Virus record (IMG/VR): IMGVR_UViG_3300043436_000463
Coordinates: 1-26,115 of that record
Source: a virus
DNA: 26,115 bases
Strand: one strand, 5' to 3'
A program made the position numbers and the translations under genes. This document shows, in pieces, positions 3,373 through 11,061 of this stretch. Position 1 is the first letter of the stretch. Each line of letters starts with the position of its first letter. The notes under the pieces were generated by a model. The model did not search any database, was not told the DNA's origin, and saw only the letters and a list, made by a program, of their open reading frames with translations.

Positions 3373-3461
3373 TTAATGATCCTCATAAAAGCGCCACAAC
3401 GAGCGCATTTGTACAAGGGCAAATCGCTTAACGGCTCCCACAAATGTTTGCAATCCATCAT
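3369..3461 (-). CDS. Zinc-knuckle microprotein, 30 residues
   Basis: Encodes 30 residues. It contains C4-K-H6 near the start and CARC at residues 19-22, a CxH...CxxC pattern that could hold one zinc ion as a minimal zinc ribbon. The start is the first of two adjacent ATGs (3459-3461), which overlaps the upstream stop as ATGA, and its own stop overlaps the next start the same way. I infer a nucleic-acid- or protein-binding peptide; no family was recognised. Confidence 0.55.
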   Translation of the reverse strand: MMDCKHLWEPLSDLPLYKCARCGAFMRIIK

Positions 3462-3712
3462 GTCCCCTTTGTGCCCCAATCGGGAAACTTTTCATTGGCA
3501 GTAAGTGTGTTCAATTGATTGTTTAGGTCATCTAGTTCATGAATGTTGAAGTTGCCACGACAAAAGCATCCCCATGCCCACGCTGCTTCTTCCCACAGAC
3601 ATTCCTTAAACAACCTGTCACGCACAAATGCGCCGGGGCTGTTAGGCATGTACAGCTTTTTGCTGTCATCAATTTCGGCTCTCATAGCCGCTGCAATGGC
3701 TGCGTAGTTCAT
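3458..3712 (-). CDS. Small phage protein, unknown function
   Basis: Encodes 84 residues. The ATG at 3710-3712 is preceded by an AGGAC ribosome site. The sequence has a helical start (MNYAAIAAAMRAEIDD) and an aromatic/acidic middle (CLWEEAAWAWGCFCRGNF). No family was recognised. The 57 bases upstream (3713-3769) hold no convincing gene, only a 16-codon frame starting in the TGATG overlap with the YbcO-like gene. This is the one real gap in the operon between 978 and 7216. Confidence 0.65.
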   Translation of the reverse strand: MNYAAIAAAMRAEIDDSKKLYMPNSPGAFVRDRLFKECLWEEAAWAWGCFCRGNFNIHELDDLNNQLNTLTANEKFPDWGTKGT

Positions 3713-3769
3713 GTTTGTCCTAACTAGTTGCTGATGGCTCTATTATCAGGAAAGCCATTCTTTTGCACA

Positions 3770-4099
3770 TCAGGATAAACCCTTAGGTAGTGGCACATTG
3801 TTAGGCCATAGACCACGCTTCCAAAGCAATGCAACTGTTAACCTGTGTGCGTCTTCCCACATTTGCTGACGCTCAGATTTGGTCATGTTTGACCCTTGAT
3901 CTAGCTGGCTGTGGCAACGAAAGCAAAGACTTGCTATCAGGTTGTCATCAGATTTAATACCACGACCTTTACCACCACCCCAATTGGTGTGGGCTGCAAC
4001 CACTGTTCCATCATCACTTAGGCAATGTTGACAAGGTATTTCCCTTGCTGCTTCCAATAGCTTCTTGCTGCGAACGTAGTTATGTTTCGGAAACATCAT
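3770..4099 (-). CDS. YbcO-like (DUF1364) HNH-type nuclease
   Basis: Encodes 109 residues from the first of two adjacent ATGs; a TTG one codon earlier is also possible. The pattern CQHC (23-26), AH (36-37), a Gly/Lys loop GGGKGRGIKSDD (41-52) and CFRCH (59-63) matches the zinc-bound beta-beta-alpha metal nuclease fold of the DUF1364/YbcO family. Members lie in lambdoid recombination regions next to NinB and RusA, as here. It probably nicks or trims DNA during phage recombination, or resolves intermediates together with the neighbouring RusA. It overlaps the end of the NinB gene by 20 bases. Confidence 0.8.
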   Translation of the reverse strand: MMFPKHNYVRSKKLLEAAREIPCQHCLSDDGTVVAAHTNWGGGKGRGIKSDDNLIASLCFRCHSQLDQGSNMTKSERQQMWEDAHRLTVALLWKRGLWPNNVPLPKGLS

Positions 4100-4400
4100 C
4101 AATCGTTACCCCGTTAGTGTTGGCCCAATACAAAAGCCACTCAGTAAAACTTACAGCTTGCTCTTTGGTAAACCGTCTGCTTTGATGGCCTAGCTGGACG
4201 ACTCTTTCGCCATCAATGCTTGGCATAACTTTGCTGATGCTGGACATCTCTCCGCTTTCGTGCGCCCATTGGTCAATTAGAAATCGCTTAAAGCTTTCAG
4301 CGTTCCAGCGGCTACCGTGCAATGTTGCTTGCTTGGCAATCTGACCAATGATGCTGTGCATGAGTTTGTTTTGTTGGTCTGATCTAAGGCTTGGTGTCAT
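4080..4400 (-). CDS. ninB: NinB-like recombination mediator
   Basis: Encodes 106 residues. The start LRSDQQNKLMHSIIGQIAKQ, the central ESFKRFLIDQW and the C-terminal RFTKEQAVSFTEWLLYWANTNGV follow the NinB family. In lambda (Orf/NinB, 146 residues) this protein binds single-stranded DNA and helps the annealing protein load on SSB-coated DNA, replacing RecFOR. The present protein is shorter than lambda's. A good AAGGTG ribosome site precedes the ATG. It overlaps the transporter gene by 17 bases and the YbcO-like gene by 20, so the three are probably co-translated. A functional link with ERF and the SSB-tip protein on the other strand is likely. Confidence 0.85.
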   Translation of the reverse strand: MTPSLRSDQQNKLMHSIIGQIAKQATLHGSRWNAESFKRFLIDQWAHESGEMSSISKVMPSIDGERVVQLGHQSRRFTKEQAVSFTEWLLYWANTNGVTIDDVSET

Positions 4401-4866
4401 GTTTCACCTTTAAAATTACATAAGCCCAAAAAGCACCACCAGCAACTTTTGCGGCAAATTGCATTGCAACAATCTGCGGCATCAGAACACCAAACGCCAA
4501 TGTTGGGAAAACAACACTATCCACAGCAGCACCAGCAATGTTGCTACCGTTTGCTCGCTTGATCCATGTGCCAGTAAGTTTTGCAAACACAGCCCAATCA
4601 ACAACAGATGCGGCAGTAAATGACACAGCAGACGCAATTGCAATCATTCCAGCAGCAGGATTTAGCAAATATGTCAGCAAGCCAGTGCTAACAATTAAAC
4701 AACCCATTTGCCATGTCTTTAGCTTTTGATGCAAAAGGTCACGCAAGGCCAAATCAAGGCCAATAAACAAAAATGAATTGATTGGAGATACCCAAGGCCC
4801 AAAATGTGAAATAGACAAATTAGCGGCAGTCATTGCCAATGCGTAAATTGCGATTGCTGTTTTCAT
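4384..4866 (-). CDS. yhhQ: YhhQ/VUT-family queuosine-precursor (preQ0/preQ1) transporter
   Basis: Encodes 160 residues with about five hydrophobic spans (roughly 1-20, 27-45, 55-68, 70-95, 112-150), an inner-membrane protein. Signature segments of the short phage/VUT branch are visible: SPINSFLFIGLDLALRD (27-43), with conserved P28, N30, D38, R42 and D43, and GSNIAGAAVDSVVFPTLAFG (107-126), with N109 and D116, followed by QFAAKVAGGAFW. E. coli YhhQ (about 220 residues) imports preQ0 and preQ1. The start codon overlaps the stop of the DpdA-like gene as ATGA, with no strong ribosome site of its own, so the two are translationally coupled. I infer that it feeds the precursor base to that enzyme for DNA modification. 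A role in tRNA queuosine supply is the alternative. Confidence 0.88.
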   Translation of the reverse strand: MKTAIAIYALAMTAANLSISHFGPWVSPINSFLFIGLDLALRDLLHQKLKTWQMGCLIVSTGLLTYLLNPAAGMIAIASAVSFTAASVVDWAVFAKLTGTWIKRANGSNIAGAAVDSVVFPTLAFGVLMPQIVAMQFAAKVAGGAFWAYVILKVKHDTKP

Positions 4867-5594
4867 ATTAAAGTTTCTTGTATTGGTTGTTTAATCCATT
4901 TTTGAGCAGCGTTGTGAGATTCAATTCTTTGTCTCATAACCATTGCTCTTGCTTCTTTTGTTGGTGGTGGGTAGTTTCCATTCTTCCAGTTGTTGTCAAT
5001 TCCTATATTTCGACCAATGTTTGTGCTGTCAGCAGATGCAAACGGCAACTTTGTAAACACTTCAGGGTCAAGCATACGCAAACCATGCAACTTGCAAATC
5101 GGATACCCATCAGGGCAAACAGCATTCATTGCTTCTGCCATACGCCCCCACCACAAAGAGTTGCCGATTTCTGCAAATTCACCAGAAGAACCAATGCAAA
5201 CACGATGGAAAGTCCTAGCCAACCATGTCAATCTGCTCATTGATTCGTGCATATGCCACACAGGAGCGCCAAAAAAGTTTCCTAAAGGCCAAGCACGAAC
5301 AAGAGCGTTGTTATCGTCTTCTGTTCCATCAATTACATCAGGAATAACGGCAAAGTCACAATTAGGCATCTTTTTGCACATCAATGCCCATTCGTAAAAA
5401 TTAGACCAATCAATTCTTGGATTGCCACTTTTCCAAGCACTGAAAGCCCCATTGTCAACAGCAAAGGATTGGCAGACTTCAGCGGCAACGCCAAGTTGGT
5501 CAGGATGTTGGAAAGATACAAAGCCGTGACCAGCTTGTACGGCAGCGACAGCAGCAGTTGCTGGCGTGATTGGCATACCGTGATAGTGGATCAT
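4863..5594 (-). CDS. dpdA: DpdA-like 7-deazaguanine DNA transglycosylase (TGT fold)
   Basis: Encodes 243 residues. Landmarks of tRNA-guanine transglycosylases can be followed in order: AVDNGAF at 45-51 (compare the TDSGG segment with the general-acid/base Asp), IPDVIDG at 84-90, GSSGEF at 135-140 (compare the Gly-rich substrate loop), LHGL at 169-172, and ASADSTNIGRN at 186-196, where D189 would be the nucleophile (compare FDCV...RN). The four-Cys/His zinc site of bacterial tRNA TGT is absent, as expected for a DNA-directed enzyme. DpdA exchanges guanine in DNA for preQ0 or a related 7-deazaguanine and protects phage DNA from restriction. This protein is shorter than bacterial DpdA, suggesting a minimal phage form. 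It is coupled by ATGA to RusA upstream and to the transporter downstream. Confidence 0.85.
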   Translation of the reverse strand: MIHYHGMPITPATAAVAAVQAGHGFVSFQHPDQLGVAAEVCQSFAVDNGAFSAWKSGNPRIDWSNFYEWALMCKKMPNCDFAVIPDVIDGTEDDNNALVRAWPLGNFFGAPVWHMHESMSRLTWLARTFHRVCIGSSGEFAEIGNSLWWGRMAEAMNAVCPDGYPICKLHGLRMLDPEVFTKLPFASADSTNIGRNIGIDNNWKNGNYPPPTKEARAMVMRQRIESHNAAQKWIKQPIQETLI

Positions 5595-6004
5595 GGCAAT
5601 TCTTCCCTGACCAACACATCAACCCCTGAATTTGTGTCGTAGCGTTTAGACACTCGCAATTTAACGACCTGCACATCATCTTTGTAGACAATGCCGTTCA
5701 TTGCATCCAGAAACACTTTAGCTACGTTATCAAGGTCAGGCTTTTTAGGCCAATCCAAACCGTTTAAACAGGCTTCCTTGCGCTTTTTGGAATAGCTGGC
5801 GGGGATAGCATGGCTTATCCAAATAAAGATCGCCACAGGCGTTTGTAGCGGCTCTGATGAACCCATTGCTTGACTTGCTTTGCTAGCAATGATGGTTTCA
5901 TAGTCCACTGTCTTTTTTGGCGTATATGTCCGACCACGGGAAAACCTTGGTCTTTGTTTGCCAACAGGATCGCCTTCAACACTGTAAGTTACTTGAAAAG
6001 TCAT
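5591..6004 (-). CDS. rusA: RusA-family Holliday junction resolvase
   Basis: Encodes 137 residues. The N-terminal VEGDPVGKQRPRFSRGRTYTPKKTVDYE and the catalytic block KKPDLDNVAKVFLDAMNG...YKDDVQV are typical of RusA. D90, D92 and D110 (or D109) correspond to the three metal-binding aspartates of E. coli RusA (D70, D72, D91). The enzyme cuts four-way junctions symmetrically and would resolve recombination or branched replication intermediates before packaging. The length is slightly above the usual 120 or so. It is joined by 4-nt overlaps to the small gene upstream and to the DpdA-like gene downstream. Confidence 0.93.
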   Translation of the reverse strand: MTFQVTYSVEGDPVGKQRPRFSRGRTYTPKKTVDYETIIASKASQAMGSSEPLQTPVAIFIWISHAIPASYSKKRKEACLNGLDWPKKPDLDNVAKVFLDAMNGIVYKDDVQVVKLRVSKRYDTNSGVDVLVREELP

Positions 6005-6392: not shown

Positions 6393-7216
6393 GCTGTTAA
6401 CAATCGCCATGCTGTTGCGGCACACAAGGGGACTTGTCCGTTACCAATGGCTTTAAGTCTGTCCACCCTAGCGGCCACCCCATTAGCCACTCTACCCACG
6501 TTGGGTTCAGAGCTCCACGGGCCAGTTCCGGCATTTGCGTCCGCACCCAATTGCCTGATCCACCCCATTCCTGCATAGTCCCCCCAAATTTTTTGCTCCC
6601 AGCATTGGGTGTAGGCCACATTCTCTGACCCACAATTGTTTCCAAATTTGGGTTTCTCTTTTCGTCCCAAGCTGATTCTGGTGTTATTGTTGCTGCCATT
6701 GCGGAACAACTGCGAGGTGTAGGCCATTTTTCCGACAATCCAGATTCTGTCCCTTTGGTGGTTTGCTCCAACATCGGCAGCTCCCATAACAGTCCACTTC
6801 GTGTCATACCCGAGCGCGGTAAGGTCGCCAAGGACTCGTTCAAGTCCTCGAGAAACGAGCATTGGGCTGTTCTCCACAAAGACGAATCTGGGTCGTACTT
6901 CGCTAACCACCCGCGCCATGTGCTTCCACATTCCTGATCTTTGTCCTTCAATCCCTGCGCCTTTTCCGGCTGCCGAGATGTCTTGGCACGGGAATCCTCC
7001 AGATACAACGTCAACAAGTCCTCTCCATGCGAAACCGTCAAAGGTTTGTACGTCATCCCAAATTGGAAAAGGCGGGAGAAGTCCGTCATTTTGTCTGGCG
7101 CACAGTACGCTAGCTGGGTAGGGTTCCCATTCAACGGCACAGACTGTTCTCCATCCAAGGAGATGTCCCCCAAGTATTCCTCCACCAGCGCCTGCGAAAA
7201 GAGCCAACTCATTCAT
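6389..7216 (-). CDS. Cytosine-C5 DNA methyltransferase (Dcm family)
   Basis: Encodes 275 residues. All main C5-methyltransferase motifs are present: motif I LFAGAGG near the N-terminus (SAM binding), motif IV GGFPCQDIS with catalytic C77, motif VI VFVENSP with E115, motif VIII QRDRIWIVG (154-162), and motif X GNGQVP near 258-263. The target recognition segment between VIII and X is short, about 70 residues. The ATG at 7214-7216 is chosen over an in-frame GTG 6 bases upstream because AAAGGTGG, the ribosome site, overlaps that GTG. The product is 5-methylcytosine, probably for evading host restriction. No cognate restriction enzyme is visible. A 271-codon frame lies inside this gene in the +1 register. 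Confidence 0.95.
   Translation of the reverse strand: MNELALFAGAGGGILGGHLLGWRTVCAVEWEPYPASVLCARQNDGLLPPFPIWDDVQTFDGFAWRGLVDVVSGGFPCQDISAAGKGAGIEGQRSGMWKHMARVVSEVRPRFVFVENSPMLVSRGLERVLGDLTALGYDTKWTVMGAADVGANHQRDRIWIVGKMAYTSQLFRNGSNNNTRISLGRKEKPKFGNNCGSENVAYTQCWEQKIWGDYAGMGWIRQLGADANAGTGPWSSEPNVGRVANGVAARVDRLKAIGNGQVPLCAATAWRLLTA
6397..7212 (-). CDS. Long overlapping ORF inside the methyltransferase gene (possible dual coding)
   Basis: A 271-codon frame without stops runs in the +1 register over almost the whole methyltransferase gene. It starts at an ATG 4 bases inside that gene (the two starts lie in ATGAATGAG). The translation is not random-looking: segments such as HGEDLLTLYLEDSRAKTS, WRGWLAKYDPDSSLWRTAQ, LPRSGMTRSGLLWELP, WPTP and LNPTWVEWLMGWPLGWTDL match, from memory, a family widely predicted in phages and often labelled hypothetical or methyltransferase-associated. 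The same DNA reads as motifs VI to X in the methyltransferase frame. It may be a true overlapping gene, or a frame kept open by conserved methyltransferase codons and then over-annotated. No separate ribosome site is evident beyond the shared one. Confidence 0.4.
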   Translation of the reverse strand: MSWLFSQALVEEYLGDISLDGEQSVPLNGNPTQLAYCAPDKMTDFSRLFQFGMTYKPLTVSHGEDLLTLYLEDSRAKTSRQPEKAQGLKDKDQECGSTWRGWLAKYDPDSSLWRTAQCSFLEDLNESLATLPRSGMTRSGLLWELPMLEQTTKGTESGLSEKWPTPRSCSAMAATITPESAWDEKRNPNLETIVGQRMWPTPNAGSKKFGGTMQEWGGSGNWVRTQMPELARGALNPTWVEWLMGWPLGWTDLKPLVTDKSPCVPQQHGDC

Positions 7217-10438: not shown

Positions 10439-10750
10439 ATGAACTACGCAAAAACATTCAAAGACTTTTTTGACATCAAGTTTCCTCGTGTCCGTGCGAC
10501 TGATCCAATTGAGTCGTTTGAGGCTGCTGACTCAGTTAAAGAAGTTGCTTGGAAGCATCACAAAATCATTCAAGATTGCTTGGAGACTTACGGGCCTCTT
10601 GGCAAGGATGGTATTGCAAAGATGACTGGCCTAGAAAGCAATCAGGTTGCAAGGCGAATGAACGAAATGAAGGTCATGGGCCTTGTCTCATTAACAGGCA
10701 ACAAAGTTAAATCAAACAGTGGACGTAACGAAAGAGAGTGGACAGTATGA
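10439..10750 (+). CDS. Winged-helix/HTH DNA-binding protein, 103 residues
   Basis: The ATG at 10439 is preferred over one at 10388 because AGGA lies 6 bases upstream. Residues 40-103 (AWKHHKIIQDCLETYGPLGKDGIAKMTGLESNQVARRMNEMKVMGLVSLTG... in outline) have the helix-turn-helix-wing layout of a MarR/ArsR-like winged helix, with GIAKMTGLESNQVARRMNEM as helix 2 and recognition helix. It may regulate the operon or act in replication. Its stop overlaps the MazG-like start as ATGA. Confidence 0.75.
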   Translation: MNYAKTFKDFFDIKFPRVRATDPIESFEAADSVKEVAWKHHKIIQDCLETYGPLGKDGIAKMTGLESNQVARRMNEMKVMGLVSLTGNKVKSNSGRNEREWTV

Positions 10751-11061
10751 AAGAAACACAATCGTTTGGCATGACAGAGTTTCAGGTCATGAAGTGGGCT
10801 GCTGATCGGGGCATCTACGAAAACGGTACAGCATTAGGACAAGCAAAAAAAACGCTTGAAGAAGCTGGCGAATTGCTTGCTGCTGTTGCGGCAAATGACC
10901 GTGCTGAAATTGAAGATGCTTTGGGTGATGTGATGGTTACGCTGGTCAACGTAAGCGTATTGTGCGACATGGATTTACGCCAGTGCTTTTACAAGGCGTT
11001 TAAAGTCATAGAACCAAGGCAAGGTTACATGAACAAAAACGGGCAGTTTGTTAAAGCATGA
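10747..11061 (+). CDS. MazG-like nucleotide pyrophosphohydrolase
   Basis: Encodes 104 residues from the ATG at 10747, which overlaps the upstream stop; a GTG 9 bases earlier is less likely. The metal-binding signature of all-alpha NTP pyrophosphatases is present: EEAGE at 38-42 and EIEDALGD, giving E54, D57 and D61. Such enzymes hydrolyse (d)NTPs to (d)NMP and pyrophosphate; in phages they are proposed to adjust nucleotide pools or (p)ppGpp signalling. The size is typical of the short MazG-like group. It lies at the end of the recombination operon. Confidence 0.88.
   Translation: MKETQSFGMTEFQVMKWAADRGIYENGTALGQAKKTLEEAGELLAAVAANDRAEIEDALGDVMVTLVNVSVLCDMDLRQCFYKAFKVIEPRQGYMNKNGQFVKA

Follow-up and report, generated by a model that had tools for sequence, protein, structure and literature searches.

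A phage DpdA-like gene tightly coupled to a Vut_1-family membrane protein gene suggests salvage of 7-deazaguanine for insertion into DNA

In the window analysed here, a 26,115-base linear fragment of a virus record, we identified a two-gene unit made of a DpdA-like protein of 243 amino acids (named T), which is a singleton-type phage DpdA judging from sequence profiles and a predicted model, and a membrane protein of 160 amino acids (named V), which by its sequence is a Vut_1/QPTR-family protein and a putative preQ0/preQ1 importer. The two genes are genetically coupled far above chance, and this coupling recurs across phages. The tight coupling is the new part of this work, and the idea of salvage was raised already in 2019. 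The reading we prefer, with a probability of roughly 0.6, is that the T-V pair salvages a 7-deazaguanine base and inserts it into DNA.

T (4863..5594, minus strand) was assigned to the TGT superfamily on the basis of a PHROG_887 match, residue conservation, hhalign, AlphaFold2 (AF2) and VIA-align, and V (4384..4866, minus strand) was assigned by Pfam Vut_1. The start of V lies on the stop of T within an ATGA overlap (4863..4866, minus strand). The order on the minus strand is RusA-T-V-NinB-HNH. Directly upstream of T, the gene for a RusA Holliday-junction resolvase (5591..6004, minus strand; PF05866, E 5.6e-33) shares 4 nt with T (5591/5594), an ATGA as at the T/V junction. A NinB/Orf recombination mediator (4080..4400, minus strand; PF05772, E 2.4e-15) overlaps the 3' end of V, and a YbcO-like HNH endonuclease (3770..4102, minus strand; phrog_131, E 4.7e-27) lies downstream in the operon. 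The first-pass annotation had described two ATGA-coupled genes in a recombination operon, and this description holds: both open reading frames (ORFs) are present with the same coordinates, lengths and 4-nt overlap, and Pfam and PHROG matches place RusA, NinB and HNH around them. The same -4 nt T/V overlap is found in close T-V relatives, and the overlap is likely to couple the translation of the two genes.

Several other features of the window were observed alongside this operon. An ORF of 271 aa (6397-7212, minus strand) with its own PHROG match (phrog_1008, E 7.2e-23) lies in another frame and overlaps the whole of a C5-cytosine methyltransferase gene (PF00145; 6389-7222, minus strand). The second frame over the methyltransferase gene is open in all nine of nine homologues, with 39-65% amino acid identity in that frame. 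For each homologue, no more than 2 of 1000 shuffles of its synonymous codons were stop-free; the two look like genuine genes that overlap completely. A match to the int-alpA RNA (RF02996; 8084-8157, minus strand) sits in the 5' part of the primosomal/DUF1376 ORF and scores 34.4 bits, below the gathering score of 35.8. On the plus strand, a MazG-like nucleotide pyrophosphohydrolase (10738-11061) is encoded in an early operon alongside ERF and SSB.

T matches PHROG_887, named 'queuine tRNA-ribosyltransferase', with an E-value of 3.7e-70, and returned no Pfam or NCBIfam match. A profile was built from 33 non-redundant T proteins, with CAjan and 9g left out of the build. In an hmmsearch of a small protein set, this profile found CAjan DpdA (E 2.3e-19) and 9g DpdA (E 3.3e-15), and E. 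coli TGT was undetected (E 1.3). By hhalign, the T profile aligned with ten DpdA proteins (97.9%, E 6e-13), with residues 46-191 of T placed on 62-208 of CAjan, and the comparison with a profile of 13 TGTs was not significant. The hhalign pairing joins D47, H170 and D189 of T to D63, H187 (equal to H196 of 9g) and D206 of CAjan. Among the 33 relatives, D47 and H170 are each kept in 32 and D189 in all 33; H114 is also conserved. By analogy with TGT, D189 may act as the nucleophile that attacks C1' and D47 as the base-recognising acid/base. The zinc motif CxCxxC, which E. coli TGT has, occurs in no T protein and in none of the DpdA set. T had at first been described as a TGT-fold protein with D47 and D189 but lacking the zinc site of tRNA enzymes, and both aspartates proved near-invariant and the motif missing throughout.

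Structure prediction of T and a profile search of both proteins had been proposed as checks, and both came out in favour of the first description, with T leading to DpdA and V to Vut_1 in the profile searches. The AlphaFold2 model of T (pLDDT 91.9, pTM 0.88) aligns best with TGT-family structures, which make up all of the best 50 VIA-align matches listed (Z 14.2-15.7). The highest is Cap10-CdnD (9ntn; Z 15.7, rmsd 3.4, 218 residues aligned), and the archaeal TGT 1iq8 follows within one Z unit (Z 15.3). Plain Foldseek against the PDB placed tryptophan-synthase alpha TIM barrels at the top (E 7e-4) and an archaeal TGT at rank 20, so the TGT family is separated from other TIM barrels by VIA-align only. 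Searches of PDB sequences by phmmer and hmmsearch gave no match to T, and the fold assignment therefore rests on the predicted model. Collectively, T has the sequence and model features of a DpdA, namely profile homology, the two aspartates, the histidine equivalent to 9g H196 and a predicted TGT fold.

Other assignments of T were tried and rejected. The histidine H196 of 9g separates DpdA from DpdA2 (Hutinet et al., PMC6884629); an identity as DpdA2 (nt-1 type) was ruled out because DpdA2 lacks this histidine and T has H170. Membership in the tRNA-guanine transglycosylase family PF01702 was rejected on the missing CxCxxC motif, the missing Pfam TGT match and the non-significant profile comparison.

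V matches Pfam Vut_1 with an E-value of 1e-9 and 39.4 bits, above the curated cut-off of 27.2, and phrog_4899 with an E-value of 1.7e-38. Its placement in the YhhQ/VUT transporter family, made earlier from the letters, is thus borne out, though V misses the NCBI queuosine-precursor-transporter equivalog TIGR00697 (E 0.012, 15.4 bits against a cut-off of 50.95). Six helices are predicted, and the AlphaFold2 model has a pLDDT of 85.8; against the PDB it gave weak matches, the best being ECF S-components (E 0.3). In a two-sequence comparison, V shares 26% identity (E 3e-9) with gp41 of CAjan, a putative preQ0 transporter within the CAjan preQ0/DpdA cluster. We take preQ0 or preQ1 to be the presumed substrate of V.

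The coupling of T and V was examined in larger collections. A query with V only returned 80 IMG/VR loci, many of them close relatives, and T adjoins V in 79 of the 80, the one exception being cut by a contig end. T also adjoins V in PEAT2, Tbat1_6, AB3P2, ECO111 5-P, LHE71, Phleasolo, Opt-79, Phc, Lg3 and RCIP0319, and among the named phage groups checked V occurs with T in all but one, the mEp021-like phages. T is rare (104 of 50,697 phage records), and its commonest neighbour is V (14 of 61 dereplicated loci), followed by a DNA methylase (9). Both gene orders, T-V and V-T, are found, and the T tree requires a minimum of 14 switches in the V neighbour label, which indicates repeated gain or loss of the association. 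Of 209 loci where the call was clear, counting those found with V as the query, 97 have a T without an adjoining V, as do 70 of 80 prophage loci. T is distributed over Pseudomonadota, Acidobacteriota and other phyla, and 18 records of a plasmid collection carry it.

The mEp021-like phages (mEp021, 3929-5196; MagusPhagus) carry a Vut-type gene without DpdA or QueC. There the Vut-type gene follows a DUF6378/phosphofructokinase-like gene and overlaps a phrog_757 'DNA methyltransferase' that has no Pfam match, which could point to another use for a phage Vut protein.

The absence of a visible preQ0 synthesis gene, as first reported for this DNA, holds for QueC over the 26-kb fragment and for FolE, QueD and QueE among the ORFs scanned. 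QueC was found neither in the window nor in 25 related viral records, apart from one sub-cut-off fragment in one record, and none of the scanned window ORFs matched FolE, QueD or QueE. The fully sequenced T-V phages PEAT2, AB3P2, Tbat1_6, Phleasolo, LHE71 and Phc are likewise without QueC. No Rfam match to a preQ1 riboswitch was found upstream within the window, where the sub-threshold int-alpA RNA was the sole Rfam match.

Host supply was analysed by checking the hosts of T prophages for QueC, with short partial matches to other ATPases not counted. Full-length QueC is present in 6 of 10 hosts with T and V, compared with 67 of 68 hosts with T only, so that QueC is missing from 4 of 10 versus 1 of 68 (Fisher p 7e-4). 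The sole QueC-less T-only host has a poor assembly, in which tgt is interrupted as well. When only Alphaproteobacteria were considered, QueC was missing from three of four T-V hosts versus none of nine T-only hosts (p 0.014). The four QueC-less T-V hosts, three of them Alphaproteobacteria and some of them MAGs, all retain their own TGT and hence look like salvagers. Of the tree-independent pairs for QueC and V, 2-3 spoke for the association and none against it, a result short of significance. Among 385 random genomes of the class of the Devosia-prophage host, T was found in the seed genome only. The host-QueC association is suggestive support for salvage.

Previous studies provide the frame for this reading. 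Hutinet et al. (2019) recognised 76 phages that have DpdA and no synthesis genes as a third group; these singleton-DpdA phages then outnumbered every other group carrying 7-deazaguanine genes, and the function of their DpdA was left open (PMC6884629). Host preQ0 or uptake was proposed for them, and YhhQ homologues, which were noted in some phages, showed 'no correlation' with any of the groups (PMC6884629). In the same work, CAjan without dpdA lost dPreQ0, Salmonella 7-11 DNA held 50 dADG per 10^6 nt, and dADG was absent from Orion, a phage of a host that does not make preQ0 (PMC6884629). Pantoea MED16 DNA contains 354 dADG and 3 dPreQ0 per 10^6 nt; in that study, dADG did not noticeably affect restriction (PMC8306585). 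The dADG of 7-11 and MED16 is a trace, 0.02-0.13% of G, and may be explained by carry-over of host DNA, as neither study deleted the gene. For EC151, the phage transporter was proposed to raise cellular preQ0 by uptake (PMC8310023). In a further preQ0/DpdA cluster, that of Aminobacter phage Erebus, we observed a gene annotated as nucleoside deoxyribosyltransferase (3379-3765), which is a possible second route for the base into DNA.

In the salvage-and-insert reading, V would take up preQ0 or preQ1 from the medium and so raise the supply in the infected cell, and T would use the TGT mechanism to replace guanine in phage DNA with a 7-deazaguanine base. Since the host or the environment would provide the base, two genes would be enough for the phage. 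The substrate of V, the activity of T, DNA as the target and a benefit in protection are the parts that we infer. Modification probably stays at a low level or is limited to certain sites, and the nearest relatives with measured DNA, 7-11 and MED16, do not support bulk replacement of guanine. A bolder and rather doubtful extension is that the compact singleton DpdAs accompanied by an importer are a functional class apart, placing salvaged 7-deazaguanine at rare, specific DNA sites or acting on another macromolecule instead of replacing guanine in bulk, with phages of preQ0-lacking hosts using environmental base.

The same observations bear on other accounts of the pair. The T-V unit might work only where the host supplies much preQ0, leaving mostly negligible modification and making it a marginal accessory (moron) pair. 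The trace dADG of 7-11 and MED16, its absence from Orion and the patchy gain and loss of V are in keeping with this; however, the catalytic residues are near-invariant across distant phages and T is spread over several phyla, both of which argue for selection, and we consider such a marginal role unlikely. T might also modify host or phage tRNA like bacterial TGT, with V feeding the reaction and the pair tuning translation. This would suit the fold that T has in common with tRNA TGT (Z ~14-15), the name 'queuine tRNA-ribosyltransferase' in public records and the normal service of QPTR to tRNA queuosine in bacteria (PMC11130926). We nevertheless hold a tRNA role to be improbable, given that T matches neither the zinc motif nor the Pfam TGT family, that its profile match is to DpdA and not TGT, that the DpdA histidine is conserved, and that the QueC-lacking hosts already have a TGT of their own.

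Finally, T could resemble Cap10 of type IV CBASS and act on a deazaguanylated protein, or could serve the phage in countering this kind of defence, with no nucleic acid as target. Although Cap10-CdnD gave the highest VIA-align match, near-tied with 1iq8, and TGT-family enzymes are able to act on protein (PMC11996544), no QueC-like (Cap9-like) partner is present in the window or the related viral records, PADLOC found nothing, and the sequence profile of T leads to the DNA-modifying DpdA. We regard the Cap10-like account as very improbable. A recurrent unit of DpdA and importer without QueC makes the function of singleton DpdA directly testable, and, if salvage and insertion is true, the phage would depend on an environmental nucleobase for its own DNA chemistry.

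Compared with known systems, T has the TIM-barrel fold and, by motif, the two catalytic aspartates of bacterial and archaeal TGT, but it lacks the zinc motif, the PUA domain and any detectable sequence-profile similarity. V is a Pfam Vut_1 membrane protein like E. coli YhhQ (QPTR), a preQ0/preQ1 transporter, but with 160 aa against 221 positions of the YhhQ model it falls far below the YhhQ/TIGR00697 cut-offs. The singleton DpdAs of MED16 and 7-11 belong to the same PHROG_887 family as T (41% and 32% identity) and have the same catalytic motifs, and no preQ0 synthesis genes are reported in these phages; in the part of each genome examined, no V adjoins T. They are the two relatives of T with measured DNA. 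The DpdA proteins of the Seuratvirus-like CAjan and EC151 are longer (~306 aa versus 243 aa), being extended at both the N and the C terminus, and their clusters also carry FolE, QueD, QueE and QueC, unlike the window; in both phages, as here, DpdA and a Vut-type transporter are encoded together.
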